Positions 19,953-42,260 of a stretch of DNA of 64,000 nucleotides are shown here, in pieces. The stretch covers positions 1 through 64,000 of the forward strand of contig PZPB01000007.1 in assembly GCA_003045865.1 (NCBI GenBank), read 5' to 3'. The DNA comes from Bacteroidota bacterium (GTDB lineage: Bacteria > Bacteroidota > Bacteroidia > Flavobacteriales > Schleiferiaceae). The position numbers and the translations under genes are program-made. The notes under the pieces are model-generated. The model saw only the letters and a list, made by a program, of their open reading frames with translations. It made no database searches and was not told where the DNA came from. Within the stretch, counting starts at the first letter, position 1. Each line of letters starts with the position of its first letter.

Positions 19953-21388
19953 GCTTTTGTATATTTAGCAATTAAGAGATAACTAATTAGTGAAGCACTA
20001 ATTCCAAAGAGATTAGCATCTAAACCAAGCGGTAGCTCCAGTAATTCTTGGTTTTTAAATAGCTCTAAAATTAAAGTGGTAGAACCGCCTATTAATATGG
20101 ACCACCAGGCCGCCAAACTGTTTCGGTTTTTAAAAAACAAGGCAACGATTAGTGGCACAAATAGGCCAGATACCATAAAGGAATAGGAGACTAGCATTAG
20201 GCCTAAAACTTCCGTCATTTGGCTGGCTAACGCTAAGGCTAAGATGCCAATAAATAAAGTAGTAAGGTGTGAATATCGCAATAACTTCTCCTGCGGAATA
20301 TGAAAGCGTTTGCTAATGATATCACTCAATAAATTACCAGAAGCGGCCATAAGGCAACTATCGGCAGTGCTCATTATCGCAGAGAAATAAGCCGACATCA
20401 TCAAGCCCATTAAGCCTACCGGTAATATGCTTCTTAGTAAAATAGGTAGTCCCATTTCGGGGTCGAAATTTCCTGCGGTAGTATCGATCGCTAAATCGTT
20501 AAAAAGTCCTTGGTCTAAGGCCACCTTAGCAAAGAGTCCTAAAAGAACTCCCATAAAAGCCATGATAGGCCACTCTAATAAACCTGCAATAAACCACGCT
20601 TTTTTTGCAGTTTTCTCATCGCGACAAGCGTAAATACGTTGATAAAGAGTCATACCGATAAACCAGATAGGAATAATGGTAATGGCCCAATTGATAATTT
20701 GTACTGGCTCTATGGCGCCTAAACTTAAAAAGGAAGACGGTACCGTGGCTACAATGGCATCATAACCACCCACCGCAAAATAGGACATGGGAATGCCTAT
20801 AAAAATTAAACCGCCCATTAATATAATCCACTGTACAGTATCGGTATAAATAACTGCTTTCAGTCCCCCGAAAACAGTGTAAATAACCGCAGTAAATCCC
20901 ATTATAAATACGGCTGTGTTGATGTCTAAACTAGGAAAAGTAGCAGTGGCTAATTTAGCGCCCGCTAAAATCTGTGCCCCAGTAAACCCAATATAACCGA
21001 TTGTGCTAACTATAGCGGCTAAAAAGGCAACTTTGGGATTGAAAAGGTGATAAAAAATCTCTGGAAAGGTAAAAAGCTTGTGCTTGCTTCCTAGTTTAAA
21101 AACTTTTGGAATTAAAAAGTAAGCTGATAACCAGGCGCCAATTAAACCGGTAAATAGCATCCAACTGCCTGATATTCCGATAGCGAAACCTAATCCGCCG
21201 AGACCAATGCTAAATCCGCCCCCAACATCTGTAGCCACTACACTCAGTCCAATGTGGCCGCTACTCATTTTCCTACCGCCTACGTAATAATCATCAATAT
21301 CTTTGTTGCTTCGCATAAAGTAGAAACCTACCCCAAGCATGGCGACTAAATAAAAAATAAATATGAGGAGATCTATGAGATTCGGCAA
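19949..21388 (-). CDS. Sodium:solute symporter family transporter (probable TTG start)
   Basis: 479 aa, multi-TM, SSS signature-like segments (DDYYVGGRKMSSGHIGLSVVATDVGGG); start codon at 21386-21388 is TTG on the - strand. Confidence 0.88.
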   Translation of the reverse strand: MPNLIDLLIFIFYLVAMLGVGFYFMRSNKDIDDYYVGGRKMSSGHIGLSVVATDVGGGFSIGLGGLGFAIGISGSWMLFTGLIGAWLSAYFLIPKVFKLGSKHKLFTFPEIFYHLFNPKVAFLAAIVSTIGYIGFTGAQILAGAKLATATFPSLDINTAVFIMGFTAVIYTVFGGLKAVIYTDTVQWIILMGGLIFIGIPMSYFAVGGYDAIVATVPSSFLSLGAIEPVQIINWAITIIPIWFIGMTLYQRIYACRDEKTAKKAWFIAGLLEWPIMAFMGVLLGLFAKVALDQGLFNDLAIDTTAGNFDPEMGLPILLRSILPVGLMGLMMSAYFSAIMSTADSCLMAASGNLLSDIISKRFHIPQEKLLRYSHLTTLFIGILALALASQMTEVLGLMLVSYSFMVSGLFVPLIVALFFKNRNSLAAWWSILIGGSTTLILELFKNQELLELPLGLDANLFGISASLISYLLIAKYTKA

Positions 21389-21401
21389 AACGCTAGCAAA
21401 G

Positions 21402-22316
21402 ATGCAAAAACTCTTTAAAATAGGGCTTTTTTTGGGCCTCTTATTCCTATCGGTTGCCTGTCAACCTAAAGTAAATATCGCTTTTGATGGCTATTTAGAA
21501 CCCTATATCGGTGATACTATTCCTTACAGTTTAGCTAGTCATGAAGAGCCCTCTAATAAGGTTTTGATATTCTTACCCCCTAGTTTAGACACGGTAAGTT
21601 TTGAGGAAACAGATTTATACAAAAACATCTATCGTAATGGTTATGATATCTTGTGTATTTACAAGGCTCCTGCTAAAGGAGTCCTGTTTTATCCGCGTAA
21701 AAATTTAGACTTTAAAGGACAGCATGTTCAAAATGCAAATAACCTTATTCAACATTTAAAGAATAGTAAAAAGATAAACCCCAAAGCTAATTTTAGTGTG
21801 ATGGGTTTGGGTATGGGATCTTATATGGTACCCTTAATTTCAGCTACCCAAAATGCCGATACTTCCATTTTTATTAATGGCAGTCCTTTTAGTACCTTTT
21901 TAACCTATGAACGTATTTGCGACGGAGAAATACCCTTAACCGAAGCACGAGCTGGTTATATTAAACAAAAGTTCGATATCGATTCTTTAAGTACGTTTAA
22001 GGTAAAGGTAGATGCCGTTAAAACCGATCATCCCGAAATGTTCACCTTAGGCAAGTACACCAATATGTTTTGGTTGAGCTACCATGCCAATTTCTTTATC
22101 GAAGAATACCAAAACTTAGCAGGTAAGGCGGTTTGGGTTTTTTATGATGATTATCCCCTTAATAATGTTTCCGATCTGAGCTATTTAAAGGTTTTAGAAA
22201 GTACACGCCGCAATGCCACGGTAGATTTTATCAACTTACCGGGCAGTGGTTACTTTAAAGGAGAAGAATGGGAATCGCTGGAAGAATCTTTACTAAAGTT
22301 CTTTCCTAGCAATTAA
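21402..22316 (+). CDS. Lipoprotein, alpha/beta-hydrolase-like
   Basis: MQKLFKIGLFLGLLFLSVACQPK lipobox; start 21402 preferred over 21363. Confidence 0.6.
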   Translation: MQKLFKIGLFLGLLFLSVACQPKVNIAFDGYLEPYIGDTIPYSLASHEEPSNKVLIFLPPSLDTVSFEETDLYKNIYRNGYDILCIYKAPAKGVLFYPRKNLDFKGQHVQNANNLIQHLKNSKKINPKANFSVMGLGMGSYMVPLISATQNADTSIFINGSPFSTFLTYERICDGEIPLTEARAGYIKQKFDIDSLSTFKVKVDAVKTDHPEMFTLGKYTNMFWLSYHANFFIEEYQNLAGKAVWVFYDDYPLNNVSDLSYLKVLESTRRNATVDFINLPGSGYFKGEEWESLEESLLKFFPSN

Positions 22317-22734
22317 TCTTATTAACGCGGTTTTGATGTCTGCCTCCTTCAAATTTGGCCGATAAAAAGGCAGCTACAATGTCCATCGCTTGATTGGTAC
22401 TAACAAAACGTGCCGGTAAAGCGAGGATATTAGCATCATTATGTTGACGAGCTAGAGAGGCTAACTCAGGGGTCCAGCAAAGCGCAGAACGAATACCAGC
22501 ATACTTATTAACAGTCATATTTATGCCATTACCGCTTCCGCAGATAACGATTCCTAAGTCAGCACTGCCATCTAATACTGCTTTAGCTACAGGATGACCA
22601 AAATCTGGATAATCTACACTACCATGATCGTTGGTACCGAAATTGTTAAATAGGATGCCCTCGGCACCAAATTTATCCATAATAGCCTTCTTTAAATCAG
22701 GACTAGCATGATCTCCACCTATTGCAATAATCAT
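22306..22734 (-). CDS. rpiB: Ribose 5-phosphate isomerase B
   Basis: IAIGGDHASPDLKKAI, GSADLGIVICGSGNGINMTVNKYAGIRSALCW, HNDANILALPARF. Confidence 0.92.
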   Translation of the reverse strand: MIIAIGGDHASPDLKKAIMDKFGAEGILFNNFGTNDHGSVDYPDFGHPVAKAVLDGSADLGIVICGSGNGINMTVNKYAGIRSALCWTPELASLARQHNDANILALPARFVSTNQAMDIVAAFLSAKFEGGRHQNRVNKINC

Positions 22735-23190
22735 CTGTTAATAAGTATTTCTAAGTTTAATATTCCTTTGTATTTCAATCTTTTACTATTAACAAGCATC
22801 GCCTTAAAAACTAATACCTTTGTTAATATATCCTCACAAATTTCTCTTGTGTACTAACAAGTTAATCTGCTTTCATTAAAATTTTGAAACAAGCTCTATC
22901 ACTTGTTAAAAATTGCTGCTCACTTTTTCACCATCCAAGACGGCTTTATGAACCGCTTTGCTCCAATAATTTTTTCAAAAGTAAGTTGTTATTTCACATT
23001 CCTAACAATTGTTAATAGCATTATCTTTAAAGCAGGAAATGAAGTAGTTAATAGCGAATGTATTGAAGATATCTTGTTAATAATTGTGGATAGAAAATAA
23101 AAGCAAGAACTTCGCCTAAAAGTTATCAGCCTTACTAACAGCCCATCATAAACATCATATTTTATTTAAAATAAAGAATACTATATATAT
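22735..23190. other. Candidate replication origin or complex regulatory region (AT-rich intergenic, GTTAATA cluster, near-DnaA box)
   Basis: GTTAATA/TATTAAC at 22737, 22787, 22822, 23011, 23047, 23076; TAACAATTGTTA palindrome 23003-23014; TGTGGATAG at 23085-23093 (8/9 to DnaA box TGTGGATAA). Confidence 0.35.
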
Positions 23191-24765
23191 ATGTTATTAA
23201 GAAATCTGGTCTTCCTTGCTGTTTTTTGTTTTCCACTACTTTCGTTTTCTCAAACCGACAGTGGCAATGCAGAACTTAAAGTTTATTACTTCGAAAACGG
23301 CGTCAAAAGTAGCGAGGGACCTCTCGAAAATGGCAAGCCAAACGGCTATTGGCGAAGCTATTACCGCAGCGGAGTGCTCAAGGCAGAAGGTAATCGCAAG
23401 AACTTTCTTCTCGATGGTTTGTGGATTTTCTACAATCGAGAGGCATTGCCAACAGTGGATATCGAATACAAAGATGGCTTAAAGAATGGTTTAAGGCGAA
23501 CTTATGAAGAAGGAAAAATTGTTAAAGAAGAGCCTTTTGTTAACGATCAATTGCAGGGCTTTACCCGCTTCCTATTTCCCAATGGAAAAGTAGCCAAGGA
23601 AATTCCATTTGAAGAAGGAAAGGAAAATGGCACGGGCTTCGAATATGCAGACGATGACGGGCGAATTATTACCGTTTACATCTACAAAAACGGCAGCTTA
23701 ATGCGCAAGCAAAATATCAATCGTTGGGATCAGCAAAAGCAAAAACAAGGTTTATGGGTCAGCTTTCATAAAAATCGACAAGTTCAGGTGGAAGGACCTT
23801 ATCGCAACGATTTAAAAAATGGCTACTGGAAATTTTACCAGATTAATGGTAACCTTATTCGCATCGAAAAATGGATTAACGGGGAGCTGCAAGATGGCGC
23901 TGAAGAAGTGGCTAAAGTGGAGATAAAACGAGTGATCAATCCTCAAACAGGAAAAGTTAGTTCAAAAGGGGCTTATCAAAATGGAAAAGCCACTGGTGTT
24001 CATCGGCAGTACGATGAAAATGGAGAAGTTAGTAGTAGTATTTTATATGATCAAGGCATTAAATTGGCCGAGGGTATCGTAGATGAGCAAGGAAGAAAAC
24101 AAGGTCCTTGGAAGTTTTTTTATACAGATGGTTCACTTAAATCAGAAGGAAGCTATAAGGACGATTTAAAGGTAAACTCTTGGCGTTATTTCTTTGAGGA
24201 TGGTAAGTTGGAGCAAGAAGGAAAATACAATGCAGGAGCGGCCACGGGAGAGTGGAATTGGTATTTCACAAATGGCGAGTTACGACGCACTGAAGAGTTT
24301 TACAATGGCTTAGAAGAAGGTATGTCAATAGAGTACAACGATACGGGTGCGGTATTAGCTCAGGGTGAATATGTAGAGGGATTTAAAGAGGGAAATTGGA
24401 CTTTAAACATCAATGATCACCGTGAAGATGGAGCTTATTTCGAGGGTTTAAAAACAGGTCCATGGCGCCATTATTATCTCAGTAATAACAAGCTTAGCTT
24501 TGAAGGTAGTTATGAAAATGGTAAAGAAAATGGTGAGCATATTTACTATTATGGCAATGAAAATGTAAAACGACGTGGTCAATTTTCCTTTGGAGAAAGG
24601 GACGGTATTTGGGAGTTTTTTAATGAAGATGGTTCTCGCATTTTAACCATAGAATATGTTAATGGCGAGGAAGTTAAATATAATGGTAAGAAAATAAATT
24701 ACGGTAGACGCTATGAAAAAGCAATGGAGGCCGAACAAAAGCTAAACGCGCCAGAAGAAAATTAA
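23191..24765 (+). CDS. MORN-variant repeat protein (YwqK-like)
   Basis: Signal peptide then many 'NGKPNGYWRSYYRSGVLKAEG'-type repeats. Confidence 0.85.
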   Translation: MLLRNLVFLAVFCFPLLSFSQTDSGNAELKVYYFENGVKSSEGPLENGKPNGYWRSYYRSGVLKAEGNRKNFLLDGLWIFYNREALPTVDIEYKDGLKNGLRRTYEEGKIVKEEPFVNDQLQGFTRFLFPNGKVAKEIPFEEGKENGTGFEYADDDGRIITVYIYKNGSLMRKQNINRWDQQKQKQGLWVSFHKNRQVQVEGPYRNDLKNGYWKFYQINGNLIRIEKWINGELQDGAEEVAKVEIKRVINPQTGKVSSKGAYQNGKATGVHRQYDENGEVSSSILYDQGIKLAEGIVDEQGRKQGPWKFFYTDGSLKSEGSYKDDLKVNSWRYFFEDGKLEQEGKYNAGAATGEWNWYFTNGELRRTEEFYNGLEEGMSIEYNDTGAVLAQGEYVEGFKEGNWTLNINDHREDGAYFEGLKTGPWRHYYLSNNKLSFEGSYENGKENGEHIYYYGNENVKRRGQFSFGERDGIWEFFNEDGSRILTIEYVNGEEVKYNGKKINYGRRYEKAMEAEQKLNAPEEN

Positions 24766-24766
24766 A

Positions 24767-25333
24767 ATGAAAGACGTTTTCCCCCGCCCGGTCGGTGAAT
24801 GGTTAGAATTAGACAGAGAGGTTAAATATTCTAATCCCTGGATAGAATTGAGGCATAGTAATGTGGCTTTTCCCAATGGCGGGAAAGGCATCTATGGCAA
24901 GGTGCATTTTAAAAATTTGGCAATTGGAATTTTAGCCTTAACTGCAAAAGAAGAAATTTACTTAGTAGGACAAGAACGCTTTCCTTTCGAAGGTGCTTAT
25001 AGCTGGGAAATTATTGAAGGAGGAGGTCCCTTGGACGAGGATCCACTGGAAAGTGCTAAGAGAGAATTAAAGGAAGAAACGGGCTTGGTAGCTGAAAAAT
25101 GGACCTTAATTCAGGAAATGCATCTTTCAAATTCCGTATCTGACGAAAAGTCGATGGTTTATTTAGCGACTGATTTAGAGCAATTTGAAGCCGAACCAGA
25201 AGAATCCGAAAAACTACAGGTAAAAAAAATACCATTTGCAGAAGCTCTACAAATGGTACTTAATGGTGATATAAAGGATAGTATAAGTGTAGCTGCTATT
25301 TTGCGCTACGAACTCCTTAAAAGGGGGCTTTAA
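24767..25333 (+). CDS. NUDIX hydrolase
   Basis: Nudix box-like GGGPLDEDPLESAKRELKEETGL. Confidence 0.9.
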   Translation: MKDVFPRPVGEWLELDREVKYSNPWIELRHSNVAFPNGGKGIYGKVHFKNLAIGILALTAKEEIYLVGQERFPFEGAYSWEIIEGGGPLDEDPLESAKRELKEETGLVAEKWTLIQEMHLSNSVSDEKSMVYLATDLEQFEAEPEESEKLQVKKIPFAEALQMVLNGDIKDSISVAAILRYELLKRGL

Positions 25334-25851
25334 GCTTTACTGATAGTAAATCCAACGGAAGTTTCCTCCCATATTAATTGGAAGCTTCCTTCTTTACTAA
25401 GATGGATATTTAACTTTTCGTGCTTTTCTGCCTTCTTGCTGTCTACTTCAAATCGTAGAATGTCTTTATTTTCATCGTAGTTATACGCACCCCACTGCTC
25501 CCAAATACTATTAATGATAATGGTCCATTTACCTTCGTTAGGAACGGTGAATAGACTGTATTTTCCAGCTTTAACAAGCTGACCGTTTAGTTTTACATCT
25601 TTATTAAATTCGATTACTGTTGCTTCATTAGCGCCAGTTCTCCAAACTTTTCCATAAGGCACTAAGTTTCCAAAAATTTCGCGGCCCTTCATGGACGTTT
25701 CACCATATTGAATTTTCACTTCAACATTATCAACGTTTTCTGTTTTTTCGATTAACGGGCTGGCTCTTTTTTCTTGAGCCATAAGACTTTGGTTAAAGCT
25801 AAATGCCAAAAGTAAAATAAGTAGTTTTTTCATGTTTCCGATATTTTTCAC
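25330..25851 (-). CDS. DUF2911 domain-containing protein
   Basis: VKIQYGETSMKGREIFGNLVPYGKVWRTGANEATVIEFNKDVKLNGQLVKAGKYSLFTVP. Confidence 0.88.
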   Translation of the reverse strand: MKNIGNMKKLLILLLAFSFNQSLMAQEKRASPLIEKTENVDNVEVKIQYGETSMKGREIFGNLVPYGKVWRTGANEATVIEFNKDVKLNGQLVKAGKYSLFTVPNEGKWTIIINSIWEQWGAYNYDENKDILRFEVDSKKAEKHEKLNIHLSKEGSFQLIWEETSVGFTISKA

Positions 25852-40377: not shown

Positions 40378-42246
40378 ATGGATAAGAATTACGAAGTTAT
40401 TGTAGTAGGTGGTGGTCACGCTGGCGCAGAAGCAGCGGCAGCAGCGTCAAAGATGGGTGCTAAAACACTATTAGTGACAATGAACTTGCAGACTATAGGA
40501 CAAATGTCCTGTAATCCTGCAATGGGTGGAATAGCTAAAGGCCAAATAGTTAGGGAGATAGACGCCTTAGGAGGCTTAAGTGGTATTATAACGGATAAGA
40601 CGGCGATACAGTTTAGAATGCTTAATCGCAGCAAAGGACCAGCAATGTGGTCGCCAAGAGTTCAAAGTGATCGTTGGCGTTTTGCAGAAGAATGGCGTTT
40701 GGCTTTGGAATCGATTCCTACCTTAGACTTCTTTCAGGATATGGTTGTGGACCTTATTTCTGAAGGTAGCGAGATTAAGGGTGTGGTTACGGGCATAGGA
40801 ACACGATTTTATGCTCCAAAGGTTATTTTAACCAATGGAACTTTTCTGAACGGATTAATTCACATCGGGGAAAAACAGTTTGGTGGTGGACGGGCTGGCG
40901 AACGAGCATCAGTAGGCTTAACAAAAGTACTAGAGGGCTTTGGTTTCGAAGCAGGCAGAATGAAGACAGGAACTCCACCGCGTGTAGACGGCCGCAGCTT
41001 GGATTATACCAAAATGGAGGAGCAAAAGGGGGATGAGCAGCCGGAGAAGTTTAGCTTTAGCAGTGAAACAAAAGCTTTGGTTAAGCAACGTAGTTGTTTT
41101 ATAACCTATACCAGTCCAGAAGTGCACGAGGCGCTCAAGGAGGGTTTTGATCGTAGCCCGATGTTTAATGGCGCCATAGAAAGTAAGGGACCCCGATATT
41201 GTCCAAGCATAGAGGATAAGATAAATCGCTTTGCGGATAAGGATAGGCACCAGATTTTTGTAGAACCGGAAGGTTGGAATACGGTTGAGGTATATGTAAA
41301 TGGCTTTAGTACATCCTTACCAGAAGATGTGCAAGAAAAGGCATTGCGAAAGATAGCAGGTTTTGAAAAAGCAAAAATATTCCGGCCTGGATACGCAATC
41401 GAGTATGATTTCTTTCAGCCTACTCAATTAAAGAAGACTCTCGAAACTAGATTAATGAATGGCTTGTATTTCGCTGGTCAGATTAATGGAACTACGGGTT
41501 ATGAGGAAGCTGCGTGCCAGGGTTTAATGGCGGCAATTAACGCTGTTAGAAGTCTGAGGGTTGATGAAGAATTTGTGCTAGGCCGCAATGAGGCTTATAT
41601 AGGTGTTCTCATAGATGACTTGGTTAGTAAAGGCACAGAGGAGCCTTACCGTATGTTTACCAGCAGAGCGGAACACAGGATTTTGCTAAGGCAGGATAAT
41701 GCGGATAGTAGATTAAGTGAGAAGGGCTATGAGATTGGTCTTTTATCGAAAGAAAGATTAGAAGAGTTTCACGTGAAACAATCGCGTCAGAAGCTTTTGA
41801 TGAAATACATCAAAGGCCTATCGGTTAAGATGGAAGAGGTAAACCCTATATTAGAAGCAAAGGGGCTAAGCCCGATAGATCAAACGGTAAAGTTTGATAG
41901 AGTATTAAGCAGACCGCAATTGGGTTTCTCCGATTTTAGAACGCTGGACTCTTTGTCTACCATGCTTAATAATGAGGGAATACTGCAAGAAGACATTGAT
42001 TCAGTTGAGATAGCTTTAAAATACAGCGGCTATATTGATAAGGAAATCGACAACGCTAATAAGCTTGATAGATTAGAAAATTTAAAGATTCCGGCGGACT
42101 TCGATTACAGTTTATTAAAGAGTATGAGTTATGAAGCTAGGGAAAAGTTAACCAAGTTAAAACCGGTCACTATAAAGGAAGCAAAGGCGGTAAGTGGAGT
42201 TTCTCCTTCGGATATCAGTGTTTTGCTAGTTTATATGGGCCGTTAG
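40378..42246 (+). CDS. mnmG: tRNA uridine-5-carboxymethylaminomethyl modification protein MnmG (GidA)
   Basis: YEVIVVGGGHAGAEAAAAASKMGAKTLLVTMN...; GQINGTTGYEEAACQGLMAAINA. Confidence 0.97.
   Translation: MDKNYEVIVVGGGHAGAEAAAAASKMGAKTLLVTMNLQTIGQMSCNPAMGGIAKGQIVREIDALGGLSGIITDKTAIQFRMLNRSKGPAMWSPRVQSDRWRFAEEWRLALESIPTLDFFQDMVVDLISEGSEIKGVVTGIGTRFYAPKVILTNGTFLNGLIHIGEKQFGGGRAGERASVGLTKVLEGFGFEAGRMKTGTPPRVDGRSLDYTKMEEQKGDEQPEKFSFSSETKALVKQRSCFITYTSPEVHEALKEGFDRSPMFNGAIESKGPRYCPSIEDKINRFADKDRHQIFVEPEGWNTVEVYVNGFSTSLPEDVQEKALRKIAGFEKAKIFRPGYAIEYDFFQPTQLKKTLETRLMNGLYFAGQINGTTGYEEAACQGLMAAINAVRSLRVDEEFVLGRNEAYIGVLIDDLVSKGTEEPYRMFTSRAEHRILLRQDNADSRLSEKGYEIGLLSKERLEEFHVKQSRQKLLMKYIKGLSVKMEEVNPILEAKGLSPIDQTVKFDRVLSRPQLGFSDFRTLDSLSTMLNNEGILQEDIDSVEIALKYSGYIDKEIDNANKLDRLENLKIPADFDYSLLKSMSYEAREKLTKLKPVTIKEAKAVSGVSPSDISVLLVYMGR
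41765..41780. promoter_or_regulatory. parS-like centromere site AGTTTCACGTGAAACA (inside mnmG)
   Basis: 15/16 match to TGTTNCACGTGAAACA (N allowed); 14-bp perfect palindrome GTTTCACGTGAAAC. Confidence 0.8.
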
Positions 42247-42260
42247 TTTCACGTGAAACA
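42245..42260. promoter_or_regulatory. parS-like centromere site AGTTTCACGTGAAACA (mnmG/methyltransferase junction)
   Basis: Identical 16-mer to 41765-41780, between the mnmG stop and the next ATG. Confidence 0.8.

Follow-up and report, generated by a model that had tools for sequence, protein, structure and literature searches.

The 456-bp gap at 22735-23190 of the window (the whole 64-kb stretch of DNA analysed here) is predicted to be the chromosomal replication origin (oriC), and we put the probability of this reading at about 0.95. It draws on features directly seen here, namely the GC-skew switch, the clustering of DnaA boxes, conservation, synteny and low stability; DnaA binding, the unwinding site and bidirectional firing are what we infer. 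The initial annotation had marked the gap as a candidate replication origin, and the skew minimum, the box cluster and the conservation in relatives support it. The gap has 27.6% GC and is flanked on the left by rpiB (ribose-5-phosphate isomerase B; 22306-22734, minus strand; Pfam PF02502, 6.7e-53; NCBIfam rpiB), which usually adjoins the origin on the left, and on the right by the gene of a MORN_2-repeat protein (23191-24765, plus strand; PF07661, 4e-25), the right neighbour in genus and family. As in bacterial oriC by the DoriC and Ori-Finder definition, a GC-skew minimum, an intergenic DnaA-box cluster and an AT-rich unwinding region are found in a single copy, with mnmG and parS nearby. 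However, the box of the gap is TTATYAACA and not TTATCCACA, the region lies beside rpiB, and dnaA is located near the terminus instead of adjoining. When 21300-25400 was compared with Rfam, no RNA family matched.

A cluster of probable variant DnaA boxes

The six copies of GTTAATA/TATTAAC, the palindrome and TGTGGATAG described earlier were all found in the AT-rich gap. The six copies lie at 22737 (+), 22787 (-), 22822 (+), 23011 (+), 23047 (+) and 23076 (+), with TTGTTAATAATTGTGGATAG at 23074 and TGTGGATAG at 23085. In 2000 first-order Markov sequences with the gap's own composition, 0.21 copies of GTTAATA and 0.08 of TGTTAATA/TATTAACA were expected, against 6 and 5 in the gap, and neither number was ever reached. 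All four copies of TTGTTAATA in the window sit inside the gap, which also ranked first among 456-bp stretches of the window for TTATYMACA at no more than one mismatch (9 vs a mean of 0.76). YTATTAACA occurred 75 times in the 3.05-Mb draft genome, 4 of them in the 456-bp gap, and elsewhere at most 2 copies fell within 200 bp; the gap cluster is unique. This cluster of lineage-type boxes was the densest in the 64-kb window and ranked top in the 400-kb regions of two relatives. With the E. coli-type TTATCCACA at no more than one mismatch, the gap was inconspicuous in the window and in the same-genus genomes G003 and G006. Since the DnaA-box motif is species-specific, the absence of a TTATCCACA cluster does not disqualify the gap as oriC. 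Elsewhere in the draft genome, exact boxes form one more inverted pair, which stands alone (TGTTAATAAATTGTTTATTAACA, G000:C51:55160-55182) and could be a DnaA-titration or regulatory site.

At the site aligned with 23075-23083, same-genus relatives have TGTGGATAA (identical to the E. coli box), TGTGAATAA or TGTTAATAA. In an unbiased 9-mer enrichment, the non-coding DNA upstream of rpiB from about 75 other Flavobacteriales was compared with about twice as much control DNA. TTATCAACA ranked first (67 copies in 44 loci vs 7 in the control) and TTATTAACA was among the top 9-mers (68 copies in 40 loci vs 17), while TTATCCACA, nearly absent, and TTATTCACA were found in 4 loci each of the same rpiB set. 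The alternating aligned site and the enrichment together indicate that GTTAATA is most likely the core of a variant DnaA box and that the box of the order is TTATYAACA (reverse TGTTRATAA). Thus, TGTGGATAG, which the initial annotation regarded as the DnaA box, is indeed present, but the GTTAATA repeats are most likely DnaA boxes themselves. In the papers searched, we found neither a proposal of TTATTAACA as the box for this group nor a placement of oriC at rpiB.

The array begins with TTATTAACA at 22736-22744 (minus strand; box scan and draft-genome count), a full match to the variant box. Alignment and box scan both support CTATTAACA at 22786-22794 (plus) and again at 23010-23018 (minus), the box-like ATATTAACA at 22821-22829 (minus), and TTATTAACA at 23075-23083 (minus), where the TGTGGATAA or TGTGAATAA of same-genus relatives lies on the plus strand. 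Next to the latter, CTATCCACA at 23085-23093 (minus; sequence and box scan) is the TGTGGATAG mentioned above. Weaker box-like sites are TTTTTAACA at 22904-22912 (minus; box scan) and TTATGAACC at 22946-22954 (plus; alignment), the latter being TATTAACC at the aligned site in many relatives. The palindrome TAACAATTGTTA at 23003-23014 consists of two half boxes head-to-head and is kept in most family members (sequence and alignment). On the right are two tandem boxes on the plus strand: the degenerate upstream member TTATCAGCC at 23123-23131 (sequence, alignment and 9-mer enrichment), overlapping the conserved AAAAGTTAT at 23118-23126, and TTACTAACA at 23132-23140 (alignment and box scan), which adjoins a trio-like element.

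The trio-like element and DnaA

The end of the gap reads AAAAGTTATCAGCC-TTACTAACA-GC-CCA TCA TAA ACA TCA, followed by AT-rich DNA. A G-C spacer (23141-23142) thus precedes a 3-nt periodic element at 23143-23157 (plus strand), whose opposite strand is 3'-NNT-5'. By nearest-neighbour energies, the least stable 40-bp stretch of the window starts at 23157 and the least stable 60-bp stretch at 23145; the latter (23145-23204) is the probable unwinding element. Triplets were counted by register; an unguided regex gave scattered hits and was dropped. Over five consecutive triplets in 20 relatives, the third base was A in 96 of 100, and the middle base was mostly T (54) or C (36). In an independent set, a box followed by (NNA)5 was observed 50 times on the window's strand and once on the other, compared with 74 in 1.05 Mb of control, representing about 8-fold enrichment and a 50:1 strand bias. 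The typical form in Flavobacteriaceae is TATTAACAC-G-CTA TAA TAA CCA TCA.

The arrangement is similar to the basal unwinding system (BUS) of DnaA-boxes, spacer and DnaA-trios (PMC8287927, PMC10721633) in its tandem boxes, its short G/C spacer and its one-strand 3-nt repeats running into AT-rich DNA, and several relatives have strict CTA/TTA repeats. However, the BUS trios keep the middle A, whereas here the third base is the invariant one (3'-NNT-5') and the central A is frequently replaced by G or T. In the window the copy is degenerate, with a central T in 0 of 5 triplets of the conserved register, and lacks the central A there. Several relatives have three or more 3'-NAN-5' trios in a row within 16 bp, as the BUS rule asks, in the conserved register; in the window, reading the sequence shows them in a different register only (23154-23162). 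TTACTAACA differs from TTATCCACA at 3 positions and from the lineage box TTATYAACA at 1, where the BUS rule allows no more than 2 mismatches to the standard motif. The missing central A would fit a reading that accepts the origin and its DnaA boxes but takes the element for AT-rich DNA with a chance periodicity, DnaA unwinding the origin otherwise. We consider this rather unlikely, as chance periodicity agrees poorly with the near-invariant third base across the 20 relatives and with the enrichment and strand bias of the independent set.

In the mechanism we favour, DnaA would bind the array of about 8-9 boxes of the form TTATYAACA, and a DnaA-ATP filament would grow from the tandem boxes (23123-23140) over the G/C spacer onto one strand of the periodic element (23143-23157). 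The filament would then open the AT-rich DNA at about 23145-23204, where helicases may load, and two forks would depart, one towards rpiB and the other towards mnmG and parS.

The DnaA of the window's genome has DHAT in place of the DHTT of E. coli and B. subtilis, and SLASIG where these have SLPEIG or SLPKIG. DHAT was also present in two Bacteroidales DnaAs, the only other Bacteroidota records found for comparison, both labelled plasmids; no DnaA relatives were found in the viral contigs searched. From the E. coli domain IV structure, we take the T435 position to contribute to box recognition. In B. subtilis DnaA, the middle A of the trio contacts N187 and the first G contacts R202 and E228, while the third base is not captured (PMC10721633). 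At these three positions the DnaA studied here has Q, L and A, respectively. E. coli DnaA also has Q at the N187 position and so that change alone is not diagnostic. As a hypothesis, the variant sequences would be accounted for by these DnaA changes at residues that read box and trio. Tentatively, and with the odds somewhat against it, Bacteroidota DnaA might have shifted both DNA-reading surfaces together: domain IV would read TTATYAACA, with A for C at box position 6 accompanying E. coli T435 to A, and the AAA+ pocket would read 3'-NNT-5' instead of 3'-GAT-5', with B. subtilis N187, R202 and E228 changed to Q, L and A.

Skew, neighbourhood and conservation

The cumulative GC-skew minimum of the window is at 23256, in agreement with the sign change previously noticed near the gap. 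The window's genome is a 169-contig draft, and whole-genome skew was therefore read from complete relatives. In contiguous 400-kb profiles of two complete same-genus genomes, the minimum was at 1839822 (G006) and 2637062 (G003), about 100 bp beyond the gap. Round-the-genome sampling (20 samples of 20 kb each in G003, G006 and the same-family G009) showed that skew was negative before the rpiB gap and positive after it, with the reverse switch about half-way round, indicating one origin at the gap and a terminus opposite. Third-codon-position skew, which takes out much of the gene-orientation effect, agreed in the same three genomes. The polarity from rpiB also agreed in G038, G048 and G053, three complete genomes that belong to other families of the order (10-point samples), and in 20-kb stretches centred on rpiB in these and in G009 the skew minima lay no more than about 420 bp from the centre. 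In G046, a complete genome from another family of the order, the sampled skew had no clear polarity round rpiB; a relocated origin or a rearranged chromosome could explain this. Among 60 named 10-kb loci, skew was negative left of the gap in 54 and positive right of it in 54, and the local minimum fell outside -1300 to +100 bp of rpiB in 28.

Most members of the family have, next to rpiB, a gap of about 350-480 bp (often 453-458 bp) and beyond it a divergent gene. Alignment of the gap revealed discrete conserved blocks, mostly box-like, with the boxes at conserved spacing. Neither of the two observations that had been named as speaking against an origin was made: skew reaches its minimum at the gap both in the window and in complete relatives, and relatives retain the GTTAATA cluster. 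The right neighbour in rpiB-retrieved Flavobacteriaceae is usually a 2.2-kb gene whose translation, judged by eye, we take to be RNase R (rnr). A few relatives have a NUDIX-like gene there, resembling the one that comes after the MORN gene in the window. In several genomes an extra gene lies between rpiB and the gap, with the box and trio-like element past that gene. The element is kept in all these settings and is thus not tied to regulating a given neighbour. A Flavobacterium-like rpiB-origin region was also seen in a public record titled Rhizobium sp. Q54 (L176), which looks mislabelled or contaminated.

The gap lies between divergent genes, and a promoter-like CTTGAC...TATA block in its middle is common to relatives, as would be expected if it were an ordinary divergent promoter region with the GTTAATA repeats as transcription-factor sites for rpiB and/or the MORN gene. 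We regard this as very improbable: the skew minimum is precisely at the gap in several complete genomes, the element is kept where the right neighbour is rnr or NUDIX-like and also where a further gene parts it from rpiB, and ten-odd conservedly spaced box sites, one of them an exact E. coli DnaA box in relatives, would be left unexplained. The promoter-like block itself (CTTGACTTTTT...TATA in relatives) aligns with about 22848-22875, where the window has a degenerate copy (CTTGTG...); transcription may run across the origin.

Distance from dnaA and implications

The origin-linked gene mnmG (gidA; PF01134, 2e-162) is at 40378-42246 on the plus strand. Two motif matches to parS (AGTTTCACGTGAAACA) are found at 41765-41780 and 42245-42260, one inside mnmG and one at its end, 480 bp apart and about 18.6-19.1 kb from the gap, close to the 19 kb initially estimated. 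G003 and G006 carry the pair too, at the same 480-bp distance and about 20 kb from the origin; a third, weaker site precedes the pair by 1.4 kb. The dnaA gene is on another contig of the draft (G000:C147:2058-3485); adjacency to dnaA, frequent for oriC and not required, is therefore not seen at the gap. In all six complete genomes checked, dnaA was terminus-proximal, at 65-96% of the way from the origin (as fractions of the half-chromosome, G006 0.91, G003 0.92, G009 0.78, G038 0.77, G048 0.96 and G053 0.65), and dnaA-based origin calls are thus wrong in these genomes. In Mariniflexile and Algorimicrobium (Flavobacteriaceae), which share the order, Ori-Finder placed oriC in the mnmG region (PMC11278836, PMC12843772), whereas here the skew switches at the rpiB gap, with mnmG about 17 kb away; one of these two reports already noted that the dnaA start of Mariniflexile was at odds with skew. 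An origin beside mnmG, at parS or at dnaA, as the mnmG gene and two parS sites 17-19 kb right of the gap, the use of dnaA as default origin marker and the two Ori-Finder reports (PMC11278836, PMC12843772) might suggest, is the least probable alternative, because the 400-kb profiles of G003 and G006 have their minimum at the gap and not 20 kb rightward, no comparable box cluster is present near mnmG, and dnaA lies far towards the terminus.

The kind of origin is known. For this order, our checks turned up no earlier description of the location rule, the variant box or the trio-like code, though priority is uncertain. Owing to an order-specific variant of the start signal and the distance from dnaA, standard searches would miss this origin. 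Rotating such genomes to the dnaA start can place coordinate 1 near the terminus, as in the G006 record, where dnaA is at base 126, and a correct origin is needed for coverage-peak growth-rate estimates and skew-based finishing. The changes in DnaA, paired with those in its sites, would allow the evolution of DnaA specificity to be tested directly. As predicted here, the origin of a large bacterial order would be tied to one gene neighbourhood, that of rpiB, and the variant box would allow it to be found.
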